This document shows, one piece after another, positions 4,623-24,770 of a DNA stretch of 64,000 nt; the first letter of the stretch is position 1; the number at the start of each line of letters is the position of its first letter. The stretch lies in contig NZ_AAYC01000003.1 of the NCBI RefSeq assembly GCF_000169455.1, positions 124,001 through 188,000 of the forward strand, read 5' to 3'. The stretch is from Roseobacter sp. SK209-2-6. GTDB taxonomy: Bacteria; Pseudomonadota; Alphaproteobacteria; Rhodobacterales; Rhodobacteraceae. Below the pieces are notes generated by a model. It saw only the letters and a program-made list of their open reading frames with translations. It was not told where the DNA came from and did not search any database. A program made the position numbers and the translations under genes.

Positions 4623-5423
4623 TTAACAGGCAATTTCGGGGGTAAACCTAAGTGATAGGCAAGACATACCCCCATCCAGCTTAGCGGCCTCTGTATTGCC
4701 GACCTTGCGCACATTATATCCAGCCTCAACCAGACGCGCCTCTGTTTCCGGGAAACCATCCGGCATGATCACCAGCTCATTGAAGCGGATTGCATTGGCG
4801 CAGGCTTCTTCGCCTTCTGCTGTCAGGATGACCTCATAACCTTCAAAACAGCCAGACTTTGCCAGGCGTTCAGTCGAAAGAATGGTGTTTTCGTCCAGCA
4901 AAGAGCAATCCGTCTTGAAATGAAGAACGCCTTCTGGGGTTTTCAACTCGCGCACAGTGTAGCCCCAAGGAGTCACGATCTGGCGCAACTCTTCAATGCC
5001 CGTGCTATCAGTTCGGGCCGAGGTCCCCACCAGGATCTCGCGCTCGGTTACCAGAATGTCGCCACCATCAATAAAGCCGGGTCCCTCGACTGTCTGAACG
5101 CTGCCGTAGATCTGTGCCAGAATCGGGGCCATAGCTTCTGCTTCGCGCAACCTGCTTGGTGCGCCTGGACGCATGGCAATTGCCCCCTCGGGCAAGCAAA
5201 GAGCAGCGTCCTCTACAAAGACGGAATCTGGAAATTCTTCCAACGCCTCAAGTGTCACCACCTCAGCCCCGGTAGCTTTGAGGGCAAGGACATAGTCCGC
5301 ATGGTGCTGCTCAAAGAGGGCAAGGTCTGGCGTACCAGTATCAACAGCGCGCAGCCCTTCGATCACGGCTTTGCAGGGTTTGCGCGTGACCGCATGGCTG
5401 AATGTATAAGAACGAGCAGACAA
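4623..5423 (-). CDS. ddaH: Dimethylarginine dimethylaminohydrolase (DDAH)
   Basis: A 266-aa guanidino-group-modifying enzyme that hydrolyses methylated arginines to citrulline and methylamines. It shows FPDSVFVEDAALCLP, GFIDGGDILVTER, the catalytic His in GVLHFKTDCSLLDE, and the nucleophilic Cys in LDGGMSCLSLRF near the C-terminus, the normal DDAH order. It is divergent from a nitrilase-family gene with about 150 bases between starts. Together with the ureohydrolase and creatinase in this window it fits a guanidino-compound catabolic profile. Confidence 0.9.
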   Translation of the reverse strand: MSARSYTFSHAVTRKPCKAVIEGLRAVDTGTPDLALFEQHHADYVLALKATGAEVVTLEALEEFPDSVFVEDAALCLPEGAIAMRPGAPSRLREAEAMAPILAQIYGSVQTVEGPGFIDGGDILVTEREILVGTSARTDSTGIEELRQIVTPWGYTVRELKTPEGVLHFKTDCSLLDENTILSTERLAKSGCFEGYEVILTAEGEEACANAIRFNELVIMPDGFPETEARLVEAGYNVRKVGNTEAAKLDGGMSCLSLRFTPEIAC

Positions 5424-5572
5424 GGTTTACTCCATCGGGTTGGTGAGTGAAAACAACGAGCACATTCTTTTTATACATTTGTATAATTTTGACAAGGCAG
5501 ACAAAAGCATGGCTAGGAAAACCGGTCGAACACCCGCATATTCGGCAAGAACCGGACCTGGGAGAATGTTGC

Positions 5573-6451
5573 ATGAAGATCGCCACCGCCGCCTACCCTC
5601 TAGATTGGCTCGATAGTTGGGCACAATATGAGGACAAGATCGCCAGCTGGGTCTCCACCGCAGCAACCCAGGGCGCTGACCTCTTGGTGTTTCCAGAATA
5701 TGGCGCGATGGAGCTGTCCACCCTCTCAGGCAAAGAGGTCGCCATGGATTTACAGGCCTCAATCCATGCAACCTCTGAGCGGATGGAAGCAGCAGCCGAA
5801 CTGCACCTCAAGTTGGCGGCAGAATATCGCGTTCATATCCTCGGCGCATCGGCCCCCATCGAGGCAGAGTATGCCCTGCCTGTAAATCGGGCCGAGTTCT
5901 ACAGCCCAACCGGCCAACGTGGACATCAAGACAAACAGATCATGACCGTGTTCGAACGCAACCCATGGCATATCGGCTCAGGTGGCCCGTTGAAGATCTT
6001 TGACACAGCGCTTGGCAAAATTGGTGTATTGATCTGCTATGACAGCGAGTTCCCTCTGCTGGGGCGCGCCCTGGCAGAAGTCGATGTCATTCTCGTGCCT
6101 TCCTGCACCGAAGCCCTATCCGGATATTGGCGCGTCCGCATCGGGGCAATGGCCCGCGCTTTGGAAGGACAATGCGTGACCGTGATGTCCTCGATCGTCG
6201 GACCCGCGGATTGGTCAGAGGCCGTCGACATGAATACCGGCACCGGCGGTATCTTTGCGCCACCTGATCTGGGCTTCCCTGCCACTGGGGTGCTGAGCGA
6301 GGGGGAAATGCAAAATCCCGGGTGGACCTATGCAGAGGTTGACCTGAACAGCATTGTCCAGGTGCGCAAAGCCGGGGCTGTGCGCAACCGCAGCCATTGG
6401 CCGGAACAGGAGAGAGAGGCAAAAACACCGACAATTCACCCCATGCGGTGA
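5573..6451 (+). CDS. Carbon-nitrogen hydrolase (nitrilase superfamily)
   Basis: A 292-aa amidase of the nitrilase superfamily. The Glu-Lys-Cys triad is visible: LLVFPEYGAMELS, HQDKQIMTVFER and IGVLICYDSEFPLLGRA. I chose the ATG at 5573 because MKIATAAYPLDW is the normal family start and GGGAGA lies just upstream; an upstream start at 5447 would add 42 residues without homology signal. The substrate is unknown. Divergence from ddaH suggests a nitrogen-compound catabolic role. An AT-rich segment (TATACATTTGTATAATT, 5472-5488) between the two genes is a likely promoter area. Confidence 0.85.
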   Translation: MKIATAAYPLDWLDSWAQYEDKIASWVSTAATQGADLLVFPEYGAMELSTLSGKEVAMDLQASIHATSERMEAAAELHLKLAAEYRVHILGASAPIEAEYALPVNRAEFYSPTGQRGHQDKQIMTVFERNPWHIGSGGPLKIFDTALGKIGVLICYDSEFPLLGRALAEVDVILVPSCTEALSGYWRVRIGAMARALEGQCVTVMSSIVGPADWSEAVDMNTGTGGIFAPPDLGFPATGVLSEGEMQNPGWTYAEVDLNSIVQVRKAGAVRNRSHWPEQEREAKTPTIHPMR

Positions 6452-6536
6452 TTGCACCCTTGAAAAATTGGGAAAATGCGCTCATTTAGGCCCCGTGTCC
6501 CGCCATCGAGCGGGGTAAAGCAACGATGGAGAAAAC

Positions 6537-6755
6537 ATGGCCAAGGAAGATACGCTCGAATTCCCCGGTGTCGTGAAGGAACTCCTGCCCAATGCGACGT
6601 TTCGGGTCGAGCTGGAAAACGGCCATGAAATCATCGCTCATACGGCAGGCAAGATGCGTAAAAACCGCATCCGCGTTCTGGCAGGCGACCGGGTCCAGGT
6701 GGAAATGACCCCCTATGACCTCACCAAAGGCCGGATCAATTATCGCTTCAAATGA
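6537..6755 (+). CDS. infA: Translation initiation factor IF-1
   Basis: A 72-aa single OB-fold protein, full length for IF-1, which binds the 30S A site during initiation. The start [13 protein letters not shown], the central [20 protein letters not shown] and the ending [12 protein letters not shown] are all highly conserved IF-1 segments. It is followed by a clear intrinsic terminator, so it is probably a single-gene transcript. Confidence 0.98.
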
Positions 6756-9582: not shown

Positions 9583-10430
9583 GGTTCCAGACTCATTGAT
9601 TTACAGCCAGAACAAGACCGTGGCTGCAAGTGCTATGGCTGATAGGAACACCTTTGGGCATCTGTCATAGCGGGTGGCGACACGACGCCAGTCCTTCAGG
9701 CGTCCGAACATGATCTCGATCCGGTTGCGTCGTTTGTAGCGCCGCTTGTCATATCGGATGGTTTTGTCGCGTGACTTCCGCCCTAGAATGCAGGGCTTGA
9801 TCCCCTTATCTACAAGGGCTTCGCGGAACCAGTCCGCGTCATAACCGCGGTCTCCCAACAGCCAATCGGCTGATGGCAGGCTGCTGACCAAAGCCCTGGC
9901 TCCGGTGTAGTCGCTGATTTGACCGGCCGTCATAAAGAAGCGGATCGGACGACCGTTGGTGTCAGTGACCGCATGCAGCTTGGTGTTAATCTCCCCCTTT
10001 GTTCGGCCAATCAGCCTGCCACGCCCCCCTTTTTAACCGCAGGCTGGAAGCCGTGCGGTGAGCCTTGAGGTAAGTGGCATCAATCATGATGGTCTTGTGA
10101 TCAGCGGCTTCCGCCTCCAACCCTTCCATGATCCGAGCAAACACGCCCATGTCGCTCCACCGTTTCCAGCGATTGTAGAGTGTCTTGGGCGGACCATATT
10201 CCCTTGGTGCATCGCTCCAACGCAAGCCATTGCGATTGATGAAGATAATGCCACTCAGAACACGCCTATCATCGACGCGTGGCTTGCCATGGCTCTTCGG
10301 AAAGTATGGCCGGAGCCGCGCCATCTGCTCGTCAGTCAGCCAGAAAAGATTGCTCATCACGCCCCCTAAAGTTTGGGAGCTTGAATCAAGATCGCGCGGA
10401 GACCGCAACCAAATCAATGGGTCCAGAGCC
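9583..10430 (-). mobile_element. IS5-family insertion sequence (IS427-like), copy 1
   Basis: An element of about 848 bp with imperfect 20-bp terminal inverted repeats: 9583-9602 (GGTTCCAGACTCATTGATTT) against the complement of 10411-10430, 16 of 20 matching. TA flanks both ends (9581-9582 and 10431-10432), consistent with a short TA target duplication. It carries a two-frame transposase on the minus strand. A related but diverged and truncated copy lies at 20980-21630 in the same orientation. Confidence 0.85.
9601..10357 (-). pseudogene. IS5-family transposase, two frames, probably inactivated by a 1-base deletion
   Basis: The first frame (10357 down to 9986) encodes MSNLFWLTDEQMARLRPYF and the first catalytic Asp in KTIMIDATYLKAHRT. 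The second frame (ending at 9601) encodes RLIGRTKGEINTKLHAVTD, LLGDRGYDADWFREAL (second Asp) and RRNRIEIMFGRLKDWRRVATRYD (catalytic Glu). In this IS group the frames are normally joined by -1 slippage on a run such as AAAAAGGGGGG. Here the first frame enters the run one base off (CGGTTA rather than an expected CGGGTTA), so a +1 change would be needed. I infer a one-base deletion; a sequencing error is possible. Confidence 0.75.
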
Positions 10431-10689
10431 TAATCCTGCCGCGTCGTCGATTGACCGGCTTTGGCATTGAGTTCAGAATCTCGAGAGTATCTTGAAGAAA
10501 ACCCACATAAGCCAATTGGACAATTTGGATCAAACGAGGCCCCTTTCGGGGCCTTCTTTATTCGCAGCCCAATAGCTCGGCTTTCTGCTTACGTGGCATT
10601 CACCGATCAATGCTGGGTGTTCGCCCCATCGTCGTGTAGGGGGCTGTCTCTCAATGCGATCATACTTTGCGGCATTCGCGCCGTGTGGT

Positions 10690-10860
10690 AGTGAGCAGCC
10701 TCATCGGCAATCGTCGCACCTTGTCCCTGCAGAACTTCAACCTGACGAAGCTTCGATACAAACTCTTCGGGTTTCTCTCGTTTCCCAGCCATCGCTGATC
10801 CTCCAATTTGTGGGACAATCTACCCAGTTGGTGGACCACTTTCAGGGGGCTACTCCAGGC
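10690..10860 (-). mobile_element. Remnant of an IS3-family element (left end and start of orfA)
   Basis: Read on the minus strand, the segment starts with an IS3-type end containing TGAAAGTGGTCC. It continues through GGAGGATCAGCG and an ATG at 10792 into MAGKREKPEEFVSKLRQVEV, clearly related to orfA of the intact IS3-family element at 54203-55419 (MGIKRHKPEEIVTKLRQVEV). Homology stops after about 32 codons. The rest of the element is missing. Confidence 0.75.
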
Positions 10861-10868
10861 GTATTGGA

Positions 10869-11201
10869 TTGTCCGATGAGGAGATGCAAAACCTGTCTGA
10901 TGATTTCCTTTATGATCGGATGGTGCACGTTGTAATGGACGGATCTGTAGAATGGTCGCTCAAGTTAGTGGTTGCGGCTGTAGATGATGAGGTCGGGGAT
11001 CCTACGGTACCTTGGCTGGAAGAAAGAACCGAACTTTTGCTGGGTCGCATCCAAATCAATCTACCTGATGCCCAAGCTGGAAGCCTGCGCAGGGTGTTTG
11101 ATCCCGCGCAGATGCCTCAAGGGGTAGATGCGCCTCTGGACCAGGGCTTTGAACTGCGTAGCGTGGCCTATGCGGAGTCCTATCACCAACGCGGTCTCTG
11201 A
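10869..11201 (+). CDS. Hypothetical protein, probably 5'-truncated
   Basis: An open frame of 110 codons beginning at a TTG (10869) or an ATG at 10884, with no convincing ribosome site because the IS3 remnant abuts it. The protein is acidic (VVAAVDDEVGDPTVPWLEER) with no motif I recognise. It is probably the surviving 3' part of a gene cut by the insertion. It lies about 160 bases upstream of the haemoglobin operon and may have belonged to it. Confidence 0.4.
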   Translation: MSDEEMQNLSDDFLYDRMVHVVMDGSVEWSLKLVVAAVDDEVGDPTVPWLEERTELLLGRIQINLPDAQAGSLRRVFDPAQMPQGVDAPLDQGFELRSVAYAESYHQRGL

Positions 11202-11294
11202 AACGGTGGCGGTGCGCTGGCTTTTCCTATGTAGCGATTTTCCTCAGGGGATTGGATAGTTACAGATTTCCGAGTCTCAGTCTGGTGCACAAAA

Positions 11295-11321
11295 TAAAAT
11301 AGGACTTGTAAATACCTATTA
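11295..11321 (+). promoter_or_regulatory. Candidate promoter -10 and operator of the haemoglobin-ccoNOQP operon
   Basis: A TAAAAT -10-like hexamer (11295-11300) overlaps an inverted repeat AATAGG (11298-11303), 11-base spacer, CCTATT (11315-11320). The same arms with the same spacing, and an identical AATACCTATTAT right half, recur before the CuA-subunit gene at 16982-17004. I infer a shared operator for the Rrf2/NsrR-like protein encoded between the two operons. Confidence 0.6.
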
Positions 11322-11362
11322 TATAAAACATGTATGTGGTACTCAAATATGGAGCGATTCTA

Positions 11363-11782
11363 GTGGAAGATTCGACGCGACTGAGGCCTTGTTTATTTGA
11401 TATCACCCCAGCCGAAATCGGCCGGGTTGTTGAACAGTTCTATGCCAGCGTCCGTTCGGACAAGGTGCTGGGCCCGGTCTTTAATGCTGCGATCGAGGAT
11501 TGGCCGGCGCATGAGGCAAAAATTGCATCTTTTTGGCGTGGGGCAATCCTTCGAGAGCCCGGCTATGGCGGCAATCCGATGCAAGTCCACTTGGCCAATT
11601 CTGCAATCAAACCCGCGCATTTTTCACAGTGGCTAGCCCTGTTTCGAGCGACGCTTCAACGCGAACTTAGACCAGAAACAGCCGCTGCATTTTTCCAATT
11701 GGCTGATCGCATCGGCAAGGGAATGTGTTCCGGTATCGAGAACTCTCGCAGACCCGGAGGCTCGCCACCGATACTCACCTGA
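11363..11782 (+). CDS. Group III truncated haemoglobin
   Basis: A protein of about 139 aa of the group III truncated haemoglobin family (FDITPAEIGRVVEQFYASV, FWRGAILREPGYGGNPMQVH, and IKPAHFSQWLALFRATL with the likely proximal His). These bind haem and usually act in NO or oxygen chemistry. I prefer the GTG at 11363, which has GGAG (11351-11354) at good spacing; an ATG at 11330 in frame would add 11 residues but overlaps the promoter region. It is the first gene of an operon running to the cbb3-type oxidase genes, and the operator context points to NO response. Confidence 0.85.
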   Translation: MEDSTRLRPCLFDITPAEIGRVVEQFYASVRSDKVLGPVFNAAIEDWPAHEAKIASFWRGAILREPGYGGNPMQVHLANSAIKPAHFSQWLALFRATLQRELRPETAAAFFQLADRIGKGMCSGIENSRRPGGSPPILT

Positions 11783-11841
11783 ATGACCGCAGAATAGGTC
11801 CGAGAGCGACCTGACCTCACCACTAACCATGAGAGACGGTA

Positions 11842-12579
11842 ATGACTGCAAGCGTCTACAGTAAAGCCCGCATTATCCAGGGCGACTCCAGGCTGATTGT
11901 GCTGCGCTGGTTGACTGCCGGATGGCAGGATCTACGTGCGAACTTAGCGTTTTCTCTGTGTTACGGGACGGCGCTGGTCGTGGCAGGCTGGGTCATCATC
12001 TGGCTACTTTCTGCGACAGATACAGGTTGGATGCTACTGCCTCTATTGGCAGGTGGCGTTTTGGTGGCCCCCCTTGCAACAATTGGCCTGTATTCAATTT
12101 CGCGCGGCCGGAAAGGTGTGGCTTCAAAAGGGCAGATTGCGCTTGTTGGCGGGGTTCTAATGATCTTTGCCCTGACGTGGATACGTGCTGCCACGGTTCT
12201 TTTTGCCATTGCTTTTGGCCTACGACCCTTTGCGGGTTTTACAGAGACGCTGGAGCTTCTTTTCAGCACGCATCAGGGGTGGAGTTTAGTAATCGTCGGG
12301 TCACTGACTGGGGGGCTCTTTGCTGCCCTTGGCTTTGCGATCTCTGCTTTTTCGTTACCGATGCTTGTCGACCGAGAAATCGACGGGTTTTCTGCCATGG
12401 GGCTTAGTTTCAACGCCACTACTCACAACTTTTGGCTGAGCCTCTGGTGGGGAGGCACCATCACCTTTTTGACCGCTGCGGGCATTCTTACAGGATTGTT
12501 GGGACTCGCGGTTGTCTTTCCTCTGCTTGGCTATGCAACCTGGCACGCCTATGCGGATCTGTTTCATGGAGATGCATAA
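11842..12579 (+). CDS. DUF2189-family membrane protein
   Basis: A 245-aa integral membrane protein with about six hydrophobic segments (for example GTALVVAGWVIIWLLSA, LLPLLAGGVLVAPLATIGLY, and the last near TAAGILTGLLGLAVVFPLL). The N-terminal RWLTAGWQDLRANLAFSLCYG is typical of DUF2189 proteins, which have no established function but often accompany cytochrome oxidase or NO-related genes. It is followed immediately by the DUF1971 gene (TAA then ATG). Confidence 0.8.
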   Translation: MTASVYSKARIIQGDSRLIVLRWLTAGWQDLRANLAFSLCYGTALVVAGWVIIWLLSATDTGWMLLPLLAGGVLVAPLATIGLYSISRGRKGVASKGQIALVGGVLMIFALTWIRAATVLFAIAFGLRPFAGFTETLELLFSTHQGWSLVIVGSLTGGLFAALGFAISAFSLPMLVDREIDGFSAMGLSFNATTHNFWLSLWWGGTITFLTAAGILTGLLGLAVVFPLLGYATWHAYADLFHGDA

Positions 12580-12870
12580 ATGACTGACATGCTTCCAAAA
12601 AATGCTGTGCACTACGCAACTTCGCGTTTCACGCATGAAACCCTGCCTGACAAACTGCGCAAAGACCACAGCACCAAAGCCGGAGTCTGGGGGCTGTTGG
12701 TTGTCCAAAGTGGAGAGCTTTTGTTACGGCGTGAGGATAAAGAAGATTTTGTTATCACCGCTGGCGAAGTCGCAGTCTTTGCGCCGCAGGAGGTACATTC
12801 CATCGAGGCGATGGACAACGTGGAGTTCGAAGTCCAGTTTCACCGGCAGGAGGCTCCAGATGCAGCGTAA
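12580..12870 (+). CDS. DUF1971 protein (YeaR/TehB-like cupin fold)
   Basis: A 96-aa small beta-barrel protein. HSTKAGVWGLLVVQSGELLL and VFAPQEVHSIEAMDNVEFEVQF mark the DUF1971 family. E. coli YeaR belongs to this family and is part of the nitrate/NO-regulated yeaR-yoaG operon under NsrR (established knowledge), which fits the cluster here. The biochemical role is unknown; it may bind a metal or a nitrosative product. It overlaps the start of ccoN by 11 bases. Confidence 0.8.
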   Translation: MTDMLPKNAVHYATSRFTHETLPDKLRKDHSTKAGVWGLLVVQSGELLLRREDKEDFVITAGEVAVFAPQEVHSIEAMDNVEFEVQFHRQEAPDAA

Positions 12871-14482
12871 TCTGTCCATCGAAGACCTTGTAATCTTTTC
12901 GGCCCTATTCTTCGTCCTCATGGCTGGCTTGGCAATTTTAGGCTGGGGTGTTCCCATAGCCTATGTGATGCATGGCTGGTTAATCGCCGCCGCTGCGGGC
13001 TGGGGGCTGCTCTGGATGCTGGGCCGAGCTTGTGGTGGGGCCGTCAAGATACCGCTGGAATACAATGATCGGGTTATCCGGTTCGGAATAATTGCGGCTC
13101 TTATCTGGGGCATCATCGGCTTTACGGTTGGAGATATTCTGGCGTGGCAACTGGCCTTTCCGTCGTTAAACGGTGACATGTCCTGGTCCAACTTTGGGCG
13201 GCTCAGACCCGTACACACCTCTGGTGTTATCTTTGGCTTTGGTGGCAATGCTCTGATTGCCACGTCTTTCTTTGTGGTTCAGCGCACTTCACGTGCGCGT
13301 CTGGCCAGTGAGACGCTGCCCTGGGTCATTTTTTGGGGTTACAATCTGTTCATGGTGATCTCTGCTTCTGGCTACCTCTCCGGGATCACCCAATCCAAAG
13401 AATATGCAGAGCCAGAGTGGTATGCGGATCTCTTGTTGTTGATCGTTTGGATTGGGTACCTCACCCTTTACCTGCGAACTCTGGCGAAGCGGGCAGAGCC
13501 CCATATCTATGTAGCAAACTGGTATTACCTAGCCTTTATTGTCGTCATTGCGATGTTGCATGTGGTGAACAATCTCGCGGTCCCTGTTTCTATTGCATAT
13601 CCAAAGAGCTACTCTCTCTTTGCCGGTACCCAGGATGCAATGACCCAATGGTGGTACGGTCACAATGCAGTGGGCTTTTTGCTGACGGCTGGCTTCCTCG
13701 GTATGCTTTATTACTTCCTGCCCAAAGCAGTGAACCGGCCAGTCTATTCCTATCGGATGTCCATTGTCGGCTTTTGGGGGATAACCTTTCTCTATCTTTG
13801 GGCCGGAGCGCATCACCTGCACTACACCGCTCTGCCGGATTGGGTGCAGTACCTGGGCATGACCATGTCAATCATCCTTTTGGTGCCAAGCTGGGCCTCG
13901 GTCTTCAACGGCATTCTCACCCTGAACGGCGCTTGGGATAAGGTGAGAACGGATCCCGCAGTACGCTTCATGATGGTGGCGATCCTGTTCTATGGCCTGT
14001 CAACCTTCGAAGGCTCTTTCATGGCGATCCGACCGGTGAATTCTCTTAGCCATTACACCGATTGGACCGTCGGCCATGTCCATGCTGGGGCCTTGGGTTG
14101 GGTCGCTTTCATTACCTTTGGCACGATGTATAAATTGGTGCCTTGGGTCTGGAAGCGCGAGGGCGTCTACTCGCTGAAACTGGAGGCCTGGCACTTCTGG
14201 CTCGCCCTCATCGGTACGTTAATTTACGTCGGCGCGATGTGGAACAGTGGCATCACCCAATCACTGATGTGGCAGACCTATGATGCAGATGGCGCTTTCC
14301 TCTATTCCTTTCTCGATAGTGTAGTGGAAATGCATCCCTACTATGTTGCGCGCGCGATTGGCGGGCTGCTCTATCTGATTGGCGCCTGTATCGGCGTCTA
14401 CAACATCTACATGACCGTGAGCGGCCCCGAAAAAGTCAAAACCCAGCAAGCCGAGCCATTGGCCTCGCAACCTGCGGAGTAG
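12860..14482 (+). CDS. ccoN: cbb3-type cytochrome c oxidase subunit I
   Basis: A 540-aa haem-copper subunit with about 12 membrane segments. WWYGHNAVGFLLTAGF holds the first CuB His. GFWGITFLYLWAGAHHLHYT holds the C-family active-site Tyr and the CuB His pair, and DWTVGHVHAGALGW holds the haem ligands. FYGLSTFEGSFMAIRP keeps the conserved Glu region. All ligands of a true cbb3 oxidase (oxygen reductase, weak NO reductase) are therefore present. The start ATG at 12860 follows GGCAGGAGG. No ccoGHIS assembly genes are here, so this looks like an accessory oxidase relying on maturation factors elsewhere. Confidence 0.93.
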   Translation: MQRNLSIEDLVIFSALFFVLMAGLAILGWGVPIAYVMHGWLIAAAAGWGLLWMLGRACGGAVKIPLEYNDRVIRFGIIAALIWGIIGFTVGDILAWQLAFPSLNGDMSWSNFGRLRPVHTSGVIFGFGGNALIATSFFVVQRTSRARLASETLPWVIFWGYNLFMVISASGYLSGITQSKEYAEPEWYADLLLLIVWIGYLTLYLRTLAKRAEPHIYVANWYYLAFIVVIAMLHVVNNLAVPVSIAYPKSYSLFAGTQDAMTQWWYGHNAVGFLLTAGFLGMLYYFLPKAVNRPVYSYRMSIVGFWGITFLYLWAGAHHLHYTALPDWVQYLGMTMSIILLVPSWASVFNGILTLNGAWDKVRTDPAVRFMMVAILFYGLSTFEGSFMAIRPVNSLSHYTDWTVGHVHAGALGWVAFITFGTMYKLVPWVWKREGVYSLKLEAWHFWLALIGTLIYVGAMWNSGITQSLMWQTYDADGAFLYSFLDSVVEMHPYYVARAIGGLLYLIGACIGVYNIYMTVSGPEKVKTQQAEPLASQPAE

Positions 14483-14488
14483 CACGTC

Positions 14489-15220
14489 ATGAGCACGCAT
14501 CATCAGAAACTTGAACGCCACTCGCTGGGCTTTGCCATGACAATCCTCGTGGTGGCTTCGATTGGAGGGCTTGTGGAAATTGCCCCGTTGTTCACCATTG
14601 AGAACACCGTGGAGAAGGTAGAGGGCATGCGCCCCTATACACCGCTAGAGCTGGCCGGGCGCGATATCTATGTGCGCGAAGGCTGCTATGCCTGCCACAG
14701 CCAGATGATCCGCACGCTTCGATCTGATGTCGAACGCTATGGCCACTACAGTCTAGCAGCTGAAAGCATGTATGATCACCCGTTTCAATGGGGGTCAAAA
14801 CGCACCGGGCCAGATTTGGCAAGGATCGGCGGAAAATACTCTGACGCTTGGCATGTGGCGCATCTGGAAGCCCCGCGGGAGCTTGTCGAGGGCTCAATTA
14901 TGCCCGGCTATGCCTTCTTATCGGAGGCACGGCTCGCCACCGGTCATCTACCAGCGTCACTTAAAGCGCTGAGCCGGGCAGGTGTGCCTTACACGAAAGC
15001 CCAGATCGAAAATGCGGAAAAGGATGCGGCCCGGCAGGCGGATTTTGAACAGAACTACGAAGGCGAGTTGCAGGACAGTTATGGGGACAATGTGCAGGTG
15101 CGCGATTTTGATGGTGCACCTGGACGCCTGACCGAGATGGATGCCCTTGTGGCCTACCTTCAAATGCTCGGCACCCTTGCTGATCTCGAAACACTGAACC
15201 CTCAGGAGAGCTCCCGATGA
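14489..15220 (+). CDS. ccoO: cbb3-type cytochrome c oxidase subunit II (mono-haem)
   Basis: A 243-aa subunit anchored by one N-terminal membrane helix (SLGFAMTILVVASIGGLVEI), with one haem c motif in YVREGCYACHSQMIRTLRSD and the downstream MIMPGYAF-like loop (EGSIMPGYAFLS) carrying the axial Met. It passes electrons from CcoP to CcoN. The C-terminal 60 residues include an acidic, Gln-rich insertion. The stop overlaps the start of ccoQ (ATGA). Confidence 0.93.
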   Translation: MSTHHQKLERHSLGFAMTILVVASIGGLVEIAPLFTIENTVEKVEGMRPYTPLELAGRDIYVREGCYACHSQMIRTLRSDVERYGHYSLAAESMYDHPFQWGSKRTGPDLARIGGKYSDAWHVAHLEAPRELVEGSIMPGYAFLSEARLATGHLPASLKALSRAGVPYTKAQIENAEKDAARQADFEQNYEGELQDSYGDNVQVRDFDGAPGRLTEMDALVAYLQMLGTLADLETLNPQESSR

Positions 15221-15384
15221 CACATGATGCAGTGTTGGTTTTCTCAAAAACCTGGGGAGCAATCTATCTGATGACCGTGTTTTTGGCGGCTGTGTTCTGG
15301 GTCTATTGGCCCTCGCGGCGGCAGATCTATGACGATGCAGCGCAATCTCCGCTGGACGGGCGGGAGGAACAGCCATGGCGTTAA
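15217..15384 (+). CDS. ccoQ: cbb3-type oxidase small subunit CcoQ
   Basis: A 55-aa protein with a single membrane helix (YLMTVFLAAVFWVYWP) and a short charged tail ending GREEQPWR. Its position between ccoO and ccoP and its size are standard for CcoQ, which stabilises the complex. It overlaps ccoO by 4 bases and ccoP by 10. Confidence 0.88.
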   Translation: MTHDAVLVFSKTWGAIYLMTVFLAAVFWVYWPSRRQIYDDAAQSPLDGREEQPWR

Positions 15385-16247
15385 AGGAAAAGGACCCGGT
15401 CTCAGGAACCAACCTGACAGGGCATGAGTGGGACGGCATCACAGAATTGGACACCCCGGTACCCTGGGCGGCACGCTGGGCGCTGTGGGGAAGCATTGCC
15501 ATCGCGGCTGGGTATTGGGTTTTTTATCCGTCCTTCCCTACGGTGACCGACTATGCAAAAGGGATCTTGGGTTATTCCTCGCGTTTGGAAGTCGTGTCTT
15601 CACTGAAAGAGGCTGAAGCTGAGAGGAGGCAAACTTTTGCTCCTTTTCAGTCGGGAGATATCGCGTCCTTGGCCAAAGATCCCTCGCTTGAGGCACGCTA
15701 TGGAGCGGCCATTTCCAAGCTTTACGAGGACAATTGTGCAGCTTGCCACACAGCAGAGCTGACCGGCCAGGAGGGCTTCCCAAACCTGACCGACAATCAT
15801 TGGCTCTGGTCAGGAACGCCAGAGGAGATTGAGTATACGATCCGCTATGGCATCAATGCCACGCATGACGAAACCCGTATGGCTCAGATGTTGGCTTTTG
15901 GTGCTGATGAGATGTTGGAAAAACCGCAAGTCACAGAAGTGGTCGAGTTTGTGCTGGCCCTTTCTGGGCAGGACCATGATGCGCTGGCAGTAGAGGCGGG
16001 TGAGGTCGTCTTTGAAGAAAACTGCGCCGCTTGCCACGGTGATGATGGTCGTGGCGGCTATGAAAACGGGGCCCCGGACCTGGGAGACGACCAGTGGATC
16101 TACGGTGGTACCCGTAATGATATCTATCATAGCGTCTATTACGGCAGGCAGGGTGTCATGTCGGCCTGGGAAGGTCGCCTGGATGATCCCCAAATCCGAA
16201 TGTTGACTCTGTATCTTTTGTGGAGTGCCGAAGATGCCCCAAGCTGA
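15375..16247 (+). CDS. ccoP: cbb3-type cytochrome c oxidase subunit III (di-haem)
   Basis: A 290-aa di-haem cytochrome. The N-terminus has the family's HEWDGITELDTPVPWAARW just before the membrane helix (ALWGSIAIAAGYWVFYP). Two haem c motifs follow, DNCAACHTAE at about residue 118 and ENCAACHGDDGRGG at about residue 215, each with a downstream axial Met segment. It receives electrons from soluble cytochrome c. The reading frame overlaps the next small gene by 14 bases. Confidence 0.94.
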   Translation: MALKEKDPVSGTNLTGHEWDGITELDTPVPWAARWALWGSIAIAAGYWVFYPSFPTVTDYAKGILGYSSRLEVVSSLKEAEAERRQTFAPFQSGDIASLAKDPSLEARYGAAISKLYEDNCAACHTAELTGQEGFPNLTDNHWLWSGTPEEIEYTIRYGINATHDETRMAQMLAFGADEMLEKPQVTEVVEFVLALSGQDHDALAVEAGEVVFEENCAACHGDDGRGGYENGAPDLGDDQWIYGGTRNDIYHSVYYGRQGVMSAWEGRLDDPQIRMLTLYLLWSAEDAPS

Positions 16248-16398
16248 GGAAGACCCGAAATTTCGGCGGAACATGTACCTGTTGATACTTTTCCTTTTGG
16301 TTGGCTACATTGGGTTCAAAGCTTGGCACCTGTCGGTTGCTTTTGAAGCTTGGGGCAGCCAGCCGTTACCAGGTGAAGTTGTTGGTGCAGCAAAGTAG
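16234..16398 (+). CDS. Small single-helix membrane protein after ccoP
   Basis: A 54-aa protein, MPQAEEDPKFRRNMYLLILF and onward, with one membrane helix (YLLILFLLVGYIGFKAW) and a short periplasmic-type tail. Its ATG overlaps the end of ccoP, so it is translationally coupled to the oxidase operon. I do not recognise a family. It resembles other tiny oxidase-associated subunits in size and topology only. Confidence 0.65.
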   Translation: MPQAEEDPKFRRNMYLLILFLLVGYIGFKAWHLSVAFEAWGSQPLPGEVVGAAK

Positions 16399-16455
16399 GG
16401 GAAATCTACGTAAGGAGAGAGCGCAAAGGACTGGCGGCCTTCGCTCTGTAGGCTG

Positions 16456-16911
16456 TTAGGCAACGCCTTTGTTGATCTCCAAGGCGCGGAGCAAATTCCG
16501 CATTCCTCCATTGCCGCTCAGCACATCGTGCAAAGTCTTACTGTCCAAAGTGGTAAAGAACATCTCCTGCGCCTCGTTCAAAATCGGAAGCAAGCCGCAG
16601 GCAGGCGTCATCACACAACATCCTCCATCTTCCTTCATACACTCGACCAGTGGTGTGCCACGTTCAGATTTACGCAAAAGCCCACCGATTGAAATGGCCT
16701 CTGGCGGCAGGGCCAAACGCATCCCACCGTTTCGACCGCGCAGGGATTCAACATAGCCCTCATGCGTGAGCCACTGGGAAATCTTGGCAAGATGATTGAA
16801 AGGCAATTTCTGCATCTGAGCAATCTCACGTGTCGACATCAAGCCGTCCTCATGGGTGGCCAGGTGAATCAGGATGCGTAGGGCGTAGTCTGAGAACTTG
16901 GAAATCTGCAT
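16456..16911 (-). CDS. nsrR: Rrf2-family regulator, NsrR-like NO sensor
   Basis: A 151-aa Rrf2 winged helix protein. MQISKFSDYALRILIHLATH is the typical N-terminus, and RGRNGGMRLALPPEAIS is the wing. Cys91, Cys98 or Cys99, and Cys105 (ECMKEDGGCC, MTPACGL) match the three-cysteine Fe-S site of NsrR, whose cluster reacts with NO and releases DNA. The gene sits between two operons for NO-related functions, each with the same candidate operator. The symbol is given by family and context, not by experiment. Confidence 0.85.
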   Translation of the reverse strand: MQISKFSDYALRILIHLATHEDGLMSTREIAQMQKLPFNHLAKISQWLTHEGYVESLRGRNGGMRLALPPEAISIGGLLRKSERGTPLVECMKEDGGCCVMTPACGLLPILNEAQEMFFTTLDSKTLHDVLSGNGGMRNLLRALEINKGVA

Positions 16912-16943
16912 ACTTCTCTCTTCTCACAAAAAACACGTATTGG

Positions 16944-16955
16944 AAATACGTATTT
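16944..16955. promoter_or_regulatory. Perfect 12-bp palindrome upstream of the Rrf2 gene
   Basis: AAATACGTATTT is self-complementary and is also part of a larger inverted repeat ACGTATT-GG-AAATACGT (16935-16951). It lies 24-44 bases upstream of the Rrf2-gene start on the minus strand. This suggests autoregulation, possibly by a different operator form from the AATAGG-type repeats. Confidence 0.45.
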
Positions 16956-16957
16956 TA

Positions 16958-17005
16958 TTGACAGGTTTTAGGACTCGCAATAATAGGCAAATAAAATACC
17001 TATTA
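16958..17005 (+). promoter_or_regulatory. Promoter and operator of the norSY-senC-type operon
   Basis: A consensus TTGACA -35 (16958-16963) is followed after 17 bases by TAATAG (16981-16986) as -10. The -10 is the left arm of a perfect inverted repeat, TAATAGG (16981-16987), 11-base spacer, CCTATTA (16999-17005). A repressor bound there would block RNA polymerase. The matching repeat before the haemoglobin gene makes this a strong candidate regulon site. Confidence 0.65.
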
Positions 17006-17017
17006 TGGAGATGGCAC

Positions 17018-17527
17018 ATGCAGCCAGTTGTTCTTTTGATTTCGCTGATACTGATGGCCCTGCTGTCGACTATCTTCTTCCTGGCGGCGAGGGCATCGCG
17101 TGGGCCAGGACCCGGACCCAAAGCCAATGCTAAACGAACAGGGCTAATCTGGGCTCTTACAATCCTTGGGGTGATCGTCTCGGTTGGGTCTCTCCGCAAC
17201 TGGCCACATGCGCTAGCCAGCACCAGCGACGCATTAGAGGTAAATGTCAGCGGTGGTCAGTGGTGGTGGGACATCGACACCACAGAAATTCCGCTCGGCA
17301 AGCCTGTCAATTTCAACGTGACAACCGAAGACGTCACCCACGGTATGGGAATCTATAACCAAGATTTGACCTTGCTAACGCAGGTGCAGGCGATCCCCGG
17401 ATACACCACTCAAATCACCTACACCTTCACGGAACCAGGCAACTACCAAGTCCTGTGCATGGAGTTCTGCGGAGTGGCGCATCACGACATGGTCAACGAA
17501 TTCGAAGTTGTAGTGGTGGAGGAATAA
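17018..17527 (+). CDS. norS: CuA-containing subunit II of a haem-copper NO reductase/oxidase (NorS-like)
   Basis: A 169-aa protein with two N-terminal membrane helices and a cupredoxin domain. The CuA ligands are complete: His108, Cys147, Cys151, His155 and Met158 (LCMEFCGVAHHDM). SGGQWWWDIDT is the conserved aromatic electron-entry patch. It feeds electrons to the subunit I encoded directly downstream. Gene order (CuA subunit, subunit I, SenC, small membrane protein) is that of norSY-senC-orf1 clusters of sNOR-type NO reductases. An oxygen-reducing ba3-like function is the alternative. Confidence 0.8.
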   Translation: MQPVVLLISLILMALLSTIFFLAARASRGPGPGPKANAKRTGLIWALTILGVIVSVGSLRNWPHALASTSDALEVNVSGGQWWWDIDTTEIPLGKPVNFNVTTEDVTHGMGIYNQDLTLLTQVQAIPGYTTQITYTFTEPGNYQVLCMEFCGVAHHDMVNEFEVVVVEE

Positions 17528-18988
17528 ATGAGCATAGCAATAGAACCCGGCGCGGGAGCCCCCGTTGTAACGGTACCCCAGGCTGGCGCGATCAAAGTCA
17601 CGATGATCCTCTCTGGTGCGGTCTTCATGCTGATGATGGTCTTTGGCCTGATCATGCGGGCGGCCCAGGGCCAGTGGATAGAGCTGGACCCGGCCCTGTT
17701 TTACCAGATTTTGACGGCACATGGCGCTGGCATGGTTGGCACAGCAGCGCTCTCTGGCGCGGCTATCCTATGGTACTTCAGTGGTCGCCATGTGGTGCTG
17801 ACTGTTGGTATTTTTTGGGCCTTTCTTGGCCTGTTCCTAGTGGGTGTCGTCTTGATCCTTGGCGCTATCTTTGTCGGTGGTTTTGGGGGTGCTTGGACCT
17901 TCCTGTTCCCGCTCCCCGCCCTGTCCGGCGGCGCGTGGGAGGCAGAGGCTGCGGCAGCCTTCATGCTGGGGTATGTGGCAATTGGAGTTGGCTTCTTGCT
18001 CTACTATCTGGAGCTTGGCCGACAGATCCACGCTCGCTATGGCAGCTTAGTGCGTGCGCTGGGATGGAACCTGATCCTTGGTCGCGAGGATGACAACCCG
18101 CCACCGCCAACAATCGTAGCCGCCGCTGCCGTTACCATTTTTAACTCGATCGGCATCATCTTGGGCGCAGCGGTTCTGGTCGCAAGCCTCGTGCATCTCT
18201 TGGTGCCAGGGTTTGAGGTCAATGCGCTTCTGGCCAAGAACCTGATATATTTCTTTGGCCATGTTTTCATCAATGCCTCGATCTACATGGCGGTGACTGC
18301 AGTTTACGAGATCTTGCCGGAGTACACAGGCAGGCCCTGGAAATCGAACCGGGTGTTTGCACTTGCTTGGAACGCGGTGTTGATCTTTGTGATGGCTGTC
18401 TATTGGCACCACCTGCTTCAAGACGTGGTGATGCCGCCTTGGATGCTTGTCGTGGGACAGCTTGTTTCCTACTTCAGCGGCATTCCCCTAATCGCGGTCA
18501 CGGCCTTCTCCACCTTTCTCTATGTGCGCGGGTCAAAAATGACTTGGGACCTGACCTCTTCTCTGTTGGTCTTGTCAGTGGCTGGCTGGTCTGTGGGATC
18601 CATTCCGGCATCCATCGACGGGATGATCAGCGTCAACAAAGTGATGCATAACACCATGTGGGTGCCCGGCCATTTTCATACCTATCTGCTTCTGGGCGAG
18701 GTCGCTATGGCCTTTGGCTTTATGGCCTGGTTGGTGCGTGGCAAGACCATCTCCGAGATGGGAACCTTGGACCAGGCTGCCTTTGGCACTTATCTGGCGG
18801 GCGCAGCCGGGTTTGTCGCAGTGTTTCTGTTCTCTGGCGCAGCTTCGATCCCACGCCGTTGGGCCGTGCACTACGAACAATGGCTGACCCACGACCGTAT
18901 CGGTACTTTGTTTGGCGTGCTTGTTGTGCTGGCAACACTGGTTTTTGTAGTGCGGTTTGTTGTCGGTTTAGGGCGGAACGACGGCTGA
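17528..18988 (+). CDS. norY: Haem-copper subunit I, probable sNOR-type nitric oxide reductase (NorY-like)
   Basis: A 486-aa membrane protein with about 12 helices and the six invariant histidines: His65 (TAHGAGM), His245 (FFGHVFIN), His294-His295 (YWHHLL), His382 and His384 (PGHFHTY). The position four residues after His245, which is the cross-linked Tyr of A- and B-type oxygen reductases, is Asn249. Loss of the Tyr is the hallmark of NO-reductase branches of this superfamily, and Asn is what I recall for sNOR. An automatic pipeline might label it cytochrome c oxidase subunit I. It abuts the CuA subunit gene and overlaps senC by one base. Confidence 0.82.
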   Translation: MSIAIEPGAGAPVVTVPQAGAIKVTMILSGAVFMLMMVFGLIMRAAQGQWIELDPALFYQILTAHGAGMVGTAALSGAAILWYFSGRHVVLTVGIFWAFLGLFLVGVVLILGAIFVGGFGGAWTFLFPLPALSGGAWEAEAAAAFMLGYVAIGVGFLLYYLELGRQIHARYGSLVRALGWNLILGREDDNPPPPTIVAAAAVTIFNSIGIILGAAVLVASLVHLLVPGFEVNALLAKNLIYFFGHVFINASIYMAVTAVYEILPEYTGRPWKSNRVFALAWNAVLIFVMAVYWHHLLQDVVMPPWMLVVGQLVSYFSGIPLIAVTAFSTFLYVRGSKMTWDLTSSLLVLSVAGWSVGSIPASIDGMISVNKVMHNTMWVPGHFHTYLLLGEVAMAFGFMAWLVRGKTISEMGTLDQAAFGTYLAGAAGFVAVFLFSGAASIPRRWAVHYEQWLTHDRIGTLFGVLVVLATLVFVVRFVVGLGRNDG

Positions 18989-19587
18989 TGTTGATCAGGT
19001 TCCTCCCCTCTATTCTCGCCGCTGCATTAGGCGGCGGGATCTTGTGGCAAACCACGGATGGGGCCCAGGCCTTCACCAGTGAGGCGGCCAGACGGCTGGA
19101 TGTTGTACGTGCGCCTCGTCCGGTTCCTGATCTTATGCTGGAGGATATGAATGGCCGTCAGGTACCTTTGCTACCGCAAAAAGGTGAGGTGGTATTGGTT
19201 GAGTTCATCTACACGGTCTGTGGGGACATTTGCCAGATTGCGGCTACGGATTTTGCGGGTATCCGTGATCAGCTGCACGCGCGAGGGGAAAACGTGAGGC
19301 TCATTTCTGTGAGTTTTGACCCCACGCGCGACACGCCAGAACAAATGGCCATCTACGGAGACGCCCATGAAGCGGATGGCTCAAATTGGACCATAGCCCG
19401 ACCAGAACCGGGTGCATTAGAGATTCTTCTGGATCTGTTTGATGTTGTTGTCATTCCAGACGAATGGGGGGGCTTTCAGCACAACGCTGCAATCCACGTG
19501 ATTTCTACAAAAGGCGAGTTTTCCGCGGTCTATGACACCGATGCGGTAGCGGCAGTGCTTGCACATTTTGACCGGAGGCGGTCATGA
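18988..19587 (+). CDS. senC: SCO1/SenC copper chaperone
   Basis: A 199-aa thioredoxin-fold protein with an N-terminal signal or anchor (MLIRFLPSILAAALGGGIL). The copper-binding Cys78 and Cys82 lie in YTVCGDICQ and the ligand His165 in GGFQHNAAIH. Sco proteins deliver copper to the CuA site, so this one very likely matures the CuA subunit encoded two genes upstream. The stop overlaps the next start by 4 bases. Confidence 0.9.
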   Translation: MLIRFLPSILAAALGGGILWQTTDGAQAFTSEAARRLDVVRAPRPVPDLMLEDMNGRQVPLLPQKGEVVLVEFIYTVCGDICQIAATDFAGIRDQLHARGENVRLISVSFDPTRDTPEQMAIYGDAHEADGSNWTIARPEPGALEILLDLFDVVVIPDEWGGFQHNAAIHVISTKGEFSAVYDTDAVAAVLAHFDRRRS

Positions 19588-20144
19588 AGATGATAGGGCT
19601 TACCGTCCTCGCAATTACTGAGGCCGTCGCTTTGCGGGTAGGAACGATTGAAAGCCCGATCCAGCATGTGCTTGTGCAGATGCCGCTATTGGTCTTGGCG
19701 GGAATAGTGGCGGCCCATGATCTGAGGGTCCGGCAGGATTGGGCTATTCCGCTTCTCTTATTGGCGTTAACTACCTTTTTGTTCTGGATGTTGCCGCGCA
19801 ATGTGGATTGGGCCCTGACCCCAGCCGGAGAATTGTCCAAATACATCTCACTGCCTTTGCTATTGGGTTTGCCTCTGCGCCTTTGCTGGCCTTGGCTTGG
19901 GCCAATTTTGCGAGGCTTCTTGAAAGCTAACGCCCTTTCGATGCTAGGGGTTCTTGGCTTCCTCTATACCCATGCCCCGATCAGGATATGCAATTCCTAT
20001 TTGGTCTCCGCTCAACAGAATCTGGGCTTTGCCTTTCTCTATCTCGCTGCCGTTTTGGCCTGCATCTGGGCTTTTCCGGTTTTGTTTGGATACCCGCGTT
20101 GGCTGCCTGATGCCGCCACCGGGTGCATAAAATACGGAGCATGA
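19584..20144 (+). CDS. Membrane protein of the norSY-senC cluster (orf1-like)
   Basis: A 186-aa protein with about five hydrophobic helices (VQMPLLVLAGIVAAHD, WAIPLLLLALTTFLFWMLP, NLGFAFLYLAAVLACIW). It lies fourth in the operon, the place of orf1 in norSY-senC-orf1 clusters. Features such as HDLRVRQDW and MLPRNVDW recall the CtaG-like membrane copper assembly proteins, but I cannot confirm that by eye. A role in assembly of the reductase is likely. Confidence 0.7.
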   Translation: MKMIGLTVLAITEAVALRVGTIESPIQHVLVQMPLLVLAGIVAAHDLRVRQDWAIPLLLLALTTFLFWMLPRNVDWALTPAGELSKYISLPLLLGLPLRLCWPWLGPILRGFLKANALSMLGVLGFLYTHAPIRICNSYLVSAQQNLGFAFLYLAAVLACIWAFPVLFGYPRWLPDAATGCIKYGA

Positions 20145-20148
20145 TGTG

Positions 20149-20979
20149 ATGACCTATGCTGATACTGTTCTAGGGTTTGCGCAGCTGGCACAGAAGAAAG
20201 GGCAGAATCTGAGATCCGATCCCATGGCCTTTTTGGTGCTTGCCCTCAAGGCAGGTGCCTTTGTTGGAGCGGGTATCCTGTTGATCTTTTCTTTGGGGCA
20301 AGGAGTCGATGGTGCCATCCGCCCAATTGTCATGGGAGGCAGTTTTGGCATTGCGCTCACGCTTGTGGTCTTTGCCGGGGCAGAACTTTTCACCGGGCAT
20401 ACAATGTACATGACCCATGGGCTGTTGACCGGTATTAGCGGAATAGGGGATCTGTTGCGCTGTTGGGGGGCAAGCTGGGCTGGCAACCTGGTTGGAGCTC
20501 TGCTGCTGGCGTTGCTGTTTGTGGCTGGTGGTGGCGGATTGATCTTAGGGGCCGGAGAAGATGCCTTGCTTTACAAGGTCGCAGCCAAGAAAATGCAGGG
20601 TTCCGGACTTGAGCTCTTTGCCAAAGCAATTTTGTGCAACTGGCTCGTTTGTCTTGCTCTGTGGTGCTCAGCCCGAGCTAAAGATGACGTAACCAAATGT
20701 ATCGTGATTTTTTGGTGCCTCTATGCATTCATTGCTGCGGGCTTTGAGCATAGCGTAGCCAATATGACTGTCTTCTCCGTCGCCCTGCTTTCTGACTATC
20801 CAGAAGGCATCTCCCCGGCAGGAGCTGCGCATAATCTGATTTTTGTCACTCTGGGCAATACCTTCGCCGGAGCTGGCATCATGGGATATGGATATTGGCG
20901 TGCTGCCTCGCGGCCGCGGGTTTCGGCTGGACCCACGAGTGAATTCTTGGGTGAGAAAACCCAGACGAAGGCGGGCTGA
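20149..20979 (+). CDS. nirC: Formate/nitrite transporter family protein, NirC-like
   Basis: A 276-aa FNT-family channel with six membrane segments. AGAELFTGHTMYM and SWAGNLVGALLLALLF are the family signatures, followed by CNWLVCLALWCSARAKDD and AAGFEHSVANMTVF. NirC moves nitrite. At the end of an NO-reductase-type operon it would import or expel nitrite linked to nitrosative metabolism. The ATG at 20149 has GGAGC upstream; a GTG at 20146 is also possible. The C-terminus ends exactly where a truncated IS begins, so the last residues may have been altered by that insertion. Confidence 0.88.
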   Translation: MTYADTVLGFAQLAQKKGQNLRSDPMAFLVLALKAGAFVGAGILLIFSLGQGVDGAIRPIVMGGSFGIALTLVVFAGAELFTGHTMYMTHGLLTGISGIGDLLRCWGASWAGNLVGALLLALLFVAGGGGLILGAGEDALLYKVAAKKMQGSGLELFAKAILCNWLVCLALWCSARAKDDVTKCIVIFWCLYAFIAAGFEHSVANMTVFSVALLSDYPEGISPAGAAHNLIFVTLGNTFAGAGIMGYGYWRAASRPRVSAGPTSEFLGEKTQTKAG

Positions 20980-21630
20980 TGCAGGCGCGTATCCCTGTGT
21001 CTTTCAATGCTTCCCGGAACCAATCGGCGTCCTAGCCGCGATCTCCAAGCAGCCGGTCGACATTCGGCAAACTGCTGATCACTGCCCTTGCCCCGATGTA
21101 GTCACTCACCAGTCCAGCGGTGATGAACAGGTTCAGTGGGCGCCCCTGGCTGTCGCAGATGGCATGCAGCTTGGTGTTCTTGCCACCTTTGGTTCGGCCT
21201 ATCAGGCGGCCGCGCCCCCCTTATTAACGCCCATGCTGGTCGCTGTACGATGTGCCCTGAGGTAGGTCACGTCGATCATCACTGTCTTTTCTTCGCCGTT
21301 TTCGGCTGCCAAACTGACCATCATCTGGGCAAAGATACCCTTGTCACTCCAACGTTTCCAGCGGTTGTATGGCATCTTGTGCGAGCTGTATTCCCCTGGT
21401 GCATCGCGCCATCTTAAGCCATTGCGGTTTATGAAGATAATCCCACTCAAGACACGCCGATCATCAACAGGTGGTTTTCCATGGGACTTCGGAAAATAGG
21501 GCTCAAGACGCGCCATCTGCGCATCGCCCAGCCAGAAAAGATCAGACATGTTCACCGCTCGAGTTTCGAACTGTGAATCACGACGCCAGGTGGAAATCAA
21601 TGCCAGGTGGAAATCAATGGGTCCCGATCC
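20980..21630 (-). mobile_element. IS5-family insertion sequence, truncated and decayed copy 2
   Basis: Related to the element at 9583-10430 but clearly diverged. The first transposase frame (MSDLFWLGDAQMARLEPYF, from 21549 down) and part of the second (RLIGRTKGGKNTKLHAICD, LLGDRG) are present. In the second frame the expected Tyr codon after GDRG is TAG, a nonsense change, and homology ends at about 20980. The remaining end is at 21611-21630 (AAATCAATGGGTCCCGATCC). The two frames are joined here by a -1 shift on GGGGGG, the normal arrangement. Confidence 0.8.
21585..21618. repeat. 17-bp direct tandem duplication at the IS end
   Basis: GCCAGGTGGAAATCAAT occurs twice in a row (21585-21601 and 21602-21618), so the outer part of the IS terminal sequence is duplicated. 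This looks like a replication-slippage or aborted-transposition scar. Confidence 0.85.
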
Positions 21631-21731
21631 TAGAGGAATTGATTCAAATTTTCTGATTTATGCGTGGTTAAAGTATTTCATTTTAGTCTCTCTGAGATTC
21701 TGTGCAAAGCCAGTGAGAGACCAGAGCTGCC

Positions 21732-24770
<3,039 letters not shown>

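Follow-up and report, generated by a model that had tools for sequence, protein, structure and literature searches.

The genome of Roseobacter sp. SK209-2-6 carries, side by side, two operons for terminal respiratory enzymes, one for a cbb3-type cytochrome oxidase and one for a putative nitric oxide (NO) reductase of the sNOR type, and this raises the question of whether the two form a single unit and what that unit might do. We analysed the 64,000-nucleotide stretch that holds them (the window; positions 124,001 to 188,000 of contig NZ_AAYC01000003.1, with coordinates counted here from its first nucleotide), which is part of a 4.55 Mb genome in 29 contigs; loci, genomes and contigs are designated by L, G and C numbers. 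The genes are arranged as group III truncated haemoglobin-DUF2189-DUF1971-ccoNOQP, a divergent Rrf2 gene, and CuA subunit-subunit I-senC-orf1-nirC, and profile matches and open reading frames (ORFs) bear out the content, order, strands and coordinates that the original prediction had assigned to both operons. Unmentioned there were a 54-residue ORF after ccoP, the IS5-type remnants that flank the locus, and three predicted operators of NsrR type. We consider it probable that the locus is a horizontally acquired, NO-inducible respiratory island.

The right-hand operon begins with norS (17018..17527, +; PF00116), encoding a subunit II with a CuA domain and the motif CMEFCGVAHHDM (C147-x3-C151-x3-H155-x2-M158), followed by norY (17528..18988, +), encoding a subunit I of the COX1 family. 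As had been predicted, subunit I has six metal-binding histidines (H65, H245, H294, H295, H382 and H384) and, four residues past H245, Asn249, which aligns with the active-site tyrosine of ba3 oxidase (GHVFIN versus GHPIVY). The six histidines and Asn249 are identical in 89/89 aligned subunit I proteins, including that of the window. On the ba3 numbering and residue roles assumed here, the K-pathway positions Y244 and S309 are replaced in 89/89 (by V/I and L/V/I, respectively), and Y248 and T312 are retained in 89/89, a mixed pattern as regards the missing proton channel that characterises sNOR. CuA subunit, subunit I, SCO and orf1 genes occur together in 82 of 85 loci.

A tree with haem-copper references had been proposed as a check on this identity, and we built it from 35 of the 89 rows plus eNOR-like, ba3 and aa3 sequences. 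A 100/99 branch divides all 35 sNOR rows, including those of Nitrosomonas halophila and Nitrosomonas sp. Nm33, from the references, the outgroup branches being very long. The tree holds no bNOR, gNOR or nNOR references, and the probable assignment to sNOR rather than bNOR rests on kinship with Nitrosomonas. A phylum-wide search for distant NOR types matched 6/398 genomes, all strongly sNOR-like, and the nearest named relatives of the window protein are in Roseobacter, Leisingera and Ruegeria. An AlphaFold model of subunit I (mean predicted local distance difference test score 82) resembles haem-copper oxidases generally and discriminates no further. In Table A4 of PMC8756737 sNOR has Asn for Tyr and Silicibacter (= Ruegeria) is a listed host, such that the enzyme is of a known kind and its presence in this group already published; the same table gives Asn for a Bacillus CuA enzyme, and Asn alone is therefore not proof of sNOR. 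Taken together, the tree, the Asn and the norSY-senC-orf1 order support the sNOR-type identity first proposed for these genes. The Nitrosomonas norSY-senC-orf1 cluster (PMC4940428; PMC8756737 Table A4) shares with the window its CuA subunit, the Asn, senC, orf1, gene order and clade, whereas in the window nirC follows, an NsrR-type gene diverges from the cluster, and a cbb3-haemoglobin operon that shares its predicted operators is joined to it. Separately, L026 (genome G040) has, at about 10440-12300, a gene for a subunit I of eNOR-like type, which reads GHSSQQ at the helix of the active site and is preceded by a CuA-like gene; an sNOR, though a more distant one, is encoded in this genome as well.

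The Rrf2 regulator gene (16456..16911, −) lies between the two operons, and its product has Asp8 and three cysteines (C91, C99 and C105) as in NsrR, its best solved relative being NsrR 5n07 (E=7e-22). Among 48 Rrf2 proteins, taken as those nearest to the CuA gene and in some cases up to 3.8 kb from it, D8 is present in 46 and the three cysteines in 47, the single cysteine miss being a truncated protein. In 36/85 loci, some of them outside the Alphaproteobacteria, an Rrf2 gene diverges from the CuA gene at a distance of no more than 200 bp.

Three predicted operators in the window share the NsrR geometry of a 23-bp palindrome (6-11-6): O1 (11298..11320, AATAGG-N11-CCTATT) upstream of the haemoglobin gene, O2 (16932..16954, AACACG-N11-CGTATT) between the Rrf2 and CuA genes, and O3 (16982..17004, AATAGG-N11-CCTATT) upstream of the CuA gene. 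The genome holds three perfect copies of the palindrome AATAGG-N11-CCTATT, one of them in the promoter of each operon; the third (C22:45031) has a GC-rich spacer, lies between ORFs that we take to be COQ9-like and rpsU-like, and was set aside as a chance occurrence. A 17-base pattern, AATANGNATTNNNAATNCNTATT, matches exactly three places in the 4.55 Mb at up to two mismatches, namely O1, O2 and O3, and at up to three mismatches it matches 8 places compared to one for a reversed control.

Other islands have similar sites. An operator matrix was built from 12 training sites (window, L023, L033, L034, L035 and L039), and scores within this set are partly circular; its null, one mononucleotide shuffle, gave four matches scoring at least 11 in 1.46 Mb of shuffled sequence. 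All 13 islands of the window type (window, L023, L033-L043) have three sites, six of the 13 having supplied training sites, and in 13/13 a site lies 24-32 bp upstream of the haemoglobin gene. Outside the training set (L055, L063, L064, L069, L149, L150 and L158), sites are found upstream of the cbb3 operon in L055, L063, L064 (12.2, weak), L069 (13.6), L149 (which extends L049) and Ruegeria pomeroyi (L158). In total a predicted operator precedes 19/21 testable sNOR-linked cbb3 operons, across four gene arrangements; the count omits L045 and L070, whose cbb3 upstream DNA lay beyond the stretches. L150 (genome G139), with cbb3 beside nirC and sNOR on another contig, also has a site but is not counted among the linked operons of the 19/21. 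The palindrome upstream of DUF2189-cbb3 in L069 has the arm AAGATG, which we take to be the NsrR consensus and from which the island arms AATAGG differ. Two further observations concern individual loci: L085 has a near-canonical NsrR palindrome, AAGATGTATTGTCAATACATCTT, at position 3811, distant from the starts of both sNOR and cbb3, and L149 has two tandem truncated haemoglobin-like ORFs (5256-6563) upstream of DUF2189-cbb3, with an operator before the first.

The gap between the Rrf2 and CuA genes can be aligned in 11 rows, in which TTGACA and a TAATAG-like −10 lie between two palindromes, the second of them overlapping the −10; the palindromes are conserved and the spacer is variable. The −35 is TTGACA in 9/11 rows, including the window, and TTGACT in two, and 3/11 rows need a spacer of 18. 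In the window we read from the sequence a likely sigma-70 promoter at 16958..16986 (+; TTGACA-17-TAATAG), its −10 overlapping O3. This reading is made because of the footprint conserved in 11 rows and not from a consensus promoter scan, which gave 5 matches compared to 6.0 expected, with TTGACA-17-TAATAG not among them. The predicted palindrome-promoter-palindrome arrangement is the layout of a repressor, and the shared predicted operators lend support to the earlier proposal that one Rrf2 regulon spans both operons.

The left-hand operon includes ccoN (12857..14482, +; TIGR00780, 661 bits with a cut-off of 583), ccoO (14489..15220, +; PF02433, FixO, 309.7 bits), ccoQ (15217..15384, +; PF05545, FixQ, 64.6 bits) and ccoP (15375..16247, +; FixP, with cytochrome c domains PF13442 and PF00034, two stretches each, and PF14715), and with its active-site Tyr and CuB His the enzyme is a cbb3 oxidase. 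It had been called canonical, and this part of the original prediction has to be revised: on the tree and its signature residues the window cbb3 and the second cbb3 of the organism belong to different lineages. In a 38-row ccoN tree the sNOR-linked ccoN genes lie apart from the other cbb3 of the same genomes, and the linked-type group contains 20 rows at 99/99, these being 16 linked rows, L122 (from G139), and L143-L145, which are without sNOR. L125, a linked row from Marinicaulis, adjoins this clade together with the long-branched, unlinked row L129, and because of this the label 'linked' needs four changes on the tree and not one.

Forty-nine positions separate 11 linked-type rows from 14 others, allowing no more than a single exception in either group. 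Close to the active site, the canonical motif is replaced in the linked rows by SI[VLI]GFWGITFLYLW[AV]G[SA]HHLH (the search motif missed L125 and L132), and His305 by Gly, L123 having Ser and a Met variant. The lost histidine presumably lies on the cbb3 K-pathway. Tyr313, the CuB His pair, Glu182 and Glu185 are kept, and together with the N, O, Q and P subunits these are shared with the canonical ccoNOQP on C22, from which the island differs further in having haemoglobin-DUF2189(-DUF1971) in front and, in the window, no ccoGHIS behind. A cbb3 enzyme able to reduce NO has been published (PMC8780969, PMC3431322). Linked-type operons were also seen in genomes without sNOR at L146, L147 and L148, which have a small ORF behind ccoP and no NsrR-type site; in L146 and L147 a 702-residue ORF resembling a metal P-type ATPase occupies the ccoI position.

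How often do the two operons travel together? A ccoN of at least 60% identity lies near sNOR in 22 of the 85 loci, many of which end early at contig ends, and the R. pomeroyi island is a 23rd. There are four layouts: cbb3 in tandem upstream of sNOR (the window type), convergent downstream of sNOR (L045, L049, L070), in tandem downstream of nirC (L044, L055, L064), and divergent upstream of sNOR (L063, L069, L085). The original prediction had regarded a pairing with a dedicated cbb3 as unfamiliar, and among the best-ranked matches of long lists from full-text literature, a search with most subscription journals outside it, we found no description of sNOR and cbb3 in one NsrR regulon; the combination nevertheless recurs, in Leisingera, Ruegeria and other Alphaproteobacteria. 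Among 394 genomes of the family, the window's own included, sNOR is found in seven (E≤1e-60) and the linked ccoN type in seven (E≤1e-230). Both occur in four, which are the four with sNOR at 67% identity or more, and the three other sNORs (48-51%) are without the linked cbb3 type. Co-occurrence of close sNOR and linked cbb3 is thus 4/4 versus 3/390. Fisher's test gives P=3.5e-8 for these four and P=1e-6 when all seven sNOR genomes are counted, values that are indicative only, since the rows are related. The only congener searched, G340, has no sNOR and no linked cbb3 type.

The island is bracketed by remnants of transposases, which we take to be of IS5 type, at 9788..10432 (−; identified from ORFs and as a direct repeat of 20979-21632) and 20979..21632 (−). 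They form a direct repeat at 70-74% in the same orientation together with a 22-nucleotide repeat at 91%, and homology to the nearest relative, L033 (92%), spans 11182 to 20985. These flanks, together with the patchy spread within the family and the absence from the one congener, would suit two unrelated operons brought together by insertion-sequence moves without joint function. We regard such an accident as highly improbable, as both operons have the same predicted operators, recur in four different arrangements, and co-occur as above. In appearance the remnants resemble the ends of a decayed composite transposon. A plasmid search matched 13 records, none covering more than 80% of the query, the best being R. 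pomeroyi (32% covered at 76%).

The favored interpretation of an NO-inducible island can be set out as follows. An NsrR-type [Fe-S] Rrf2 repressor would bind the 23-bp palindromes at its own, the sNOR and the haemoglobin-cbb3 promoters, and NO would nitrosylate or damage its cluster, releasing both operons. The sNOR, supplied with electrons by cytochrome c via CuA, would then reduce NO to N2O and, given Asn249 and the replaced K-pathway residues, might do so without proton pumping. The haemoglobin may scavenge NO, SenC may load copper and NirC may move nitrite, and the dedicated cbb3 would sustain oxygen respiration while NO inhibits the main oxidases, perhaps itself reducing some NO. The proteins and the palindromic sites are read from the sequence; NO sensing, operator binding and NO reduction are inferred. 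More tentatively, and with somewhat less than an even chance of being right, the sNOR-linked cbb3 may be an oxidase lineage adapted to NO that has moved together with sNOR, the pair making up one module of terminal reductases for O2 and NO under NsrR-type control; mobile DNA would have carried this module between hosts that denitrify, oxidise hydroxylamine or are simply aerobic.

Several observations weigh against an NO-detoxifying role under one regulator. The regulator scores 101.7 bits, below the NCBIfam NsrR equivalog cut-off of 182, and is therefore named NsrR-type here. The 12-base operator pattern is common, matching 92 places in the genome at up to two mismatches compared to 71 for the reversed control, and 23 in the window at up to three compared to 15.0 expected (equalled in 4/100 shuffles). 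In the matrix scan the linked loci L044 and L085 lack an operator upstream of cbb3, as do the Nitrosomonas loci L104 and L109 upstream of norSY. Three of the seven family genomes with the linked cbb3 type are without sNOR at the threshold, and no operator was found in the DNA around those three operons, one of which has less than 450 bp upstream. Of the five COX1-family matches in the genome, two are in the island, one is aa3-like (C29), one is the second cbb3 (C22), and the fifth is norB-like (C25) with NnrS (350 bits) nearby; judged by position, ORFs of 264 and 661 residues occupy the norQ and norD places behind the C25 gene and a CxxCH reading the norC place before it. The genome thus has another candidate NO reductase as well as nirK, above the family cut-off on C14, and the part of the island in NO detoxification is probable at best. 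To our knowledge no sNOR has been purified and assayed.

The function of sNOR, as NO reductase or as oxidase, is disputed in print: PMC6967387 cites indirect evidence that Nitrococcus sNOR reduces NO, and also reports N. europaea sNOR genes up 2.7- to 10.8-fold in O2 limitation and proposes a high-affinity oxidase role. On this basis the chief alternative casts sNOR primarily as an oxygen reductase with high affinity and NO tolerance, and the island as a microoxic respiration kit that NO switches on as a signal of oxygen limitation, and the pairing with a cbb3 oxidase suits such a respiratory theme. It seems to us rather unlikely, however, as the active-site Tyr of oxygen reductases is absent and the ba3 Tyr244 and Ser309 positions, in the roles assumed above, are hydrophobic throughout the 89 proteins, a second oxidase beside the cbb3 would seem redundant, and NsrR-type control indicates NO.

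A different source of NO is suggested by the island of R. pomeroyi DSS-3 (L158; NC_006569, 185721-216869). It lies on the megaplasmid and has the same gene order as the window and operators in the same places, but is without an annotated DUF1971 and sits directly behind hao-haoB, a pyridoxal-phosphate protein gene, and the haem and cytochrome c maturation genes ccmF/dsbE/ccmH, hemA and ccmE. The cytochrome of this hao cluster has eight CxxCH motifs and is matched at 55% in the genome of Nitrosomonas halophila, hao clusters are also close to sNOR in L059 and L068, and Nitrosomonas has both hao and sNOR. This neighborhood suggests a link to hydroxylamine oxidation, in which HAO would make NO, sNOR would remove it, and cbb3 would pass HAO electrons to O2. 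As the main role of the island we think this improbable, as hao went unmatched in the window genome at E≤1e-20 and only 3/28 genomes searched have a match (those of L059, L068 and L104, R. pomeroyi being outside the set). The window genome has nirK and no nirS match, and among 13 sNOR genomes tested nirK exceeds its cut-off in four, three others have a full-length cytochrome d1 match and four more weak d1-family matches, a spread that indicates an island not tied to denitrification.

An NO-inducible island of this kind has partial precedents. The NsrR regulons in PMC1274295 share with the window the Rrf2 family, D8 with three Cys and the 23-bp palindrome. Among their members are norB, nirK and haemoglobins, and the V. 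fischeri regulon contains a terminal oxidase, Aox, the closest precedent for the island. Among the alphaproteobacteria studied there, nsrR is reported absent except in R. capsulatus E1F1. The window departs from these regulons in its arms, as noted above, and in having sNOR and a cbb3 oxidase as predicted targets. The island ties sNOR to predicted NO sensing in organisms that are probably easier to handle than ammonia oxidisers, and by setting sNOR apart from a neighboring oxidase it makes the disputed function testable; it also draws attention to a separate cbb3 lineage, perhaps able to withstand or use NO, and to a possible source of N2O in marine roseobacters.

The remaining island genes are as follows. 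The haemoglobin gene (11330..11782, +; alternative GTG start at 11363) is assigned to group III from solved structures (PDB 2ig3, E=2e-17; next-best match 0.0085), its product having no Pfam match with the ATG start and, with the GTG start, 19.9 bits, slightly below the Bac_globin cut-off of 21. It is followed by genes for a DUF2189 membrane protein (11842..12579, +; PF09955, 76.8 bits) and a DUF1971 cupin-like protein (12580..12870, +; PF09313, 66.5 bits), the latter presumably of YeaR/TehB-N type. The ORF behind ccoP (16234..16398, +) encodes 54 residues with one predicted helix and no Pfam match; it is conserved downstream of ccoP, and its R. pomeroyi counterpart, SPO_RS23450, is annotated 'hypothetical protein'. 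Downstream of norY are senC (18988..19587, +; SCO1-type copper chaperone, PF02630) and orf1 (19584..20144, +), encoding a helical membrane protein whose best Pfam E-value across 18 members is 0.006, with no fold match at E≤0.001; a suspected likeness to CtaG was not confirmed. The operon ends with a nirC-type formate/nitrite transporter gene (20146..20979, +; PF01226, 207 bits), which scores 255 bits with the NirC model, below its cut-off of 293. Beside the island, at 21732-24770, is a gene for a 1012-residue protein of RTX-like repeats, with an alanine/lysine/glutamate and poly-Asp stretch at its N terminus.

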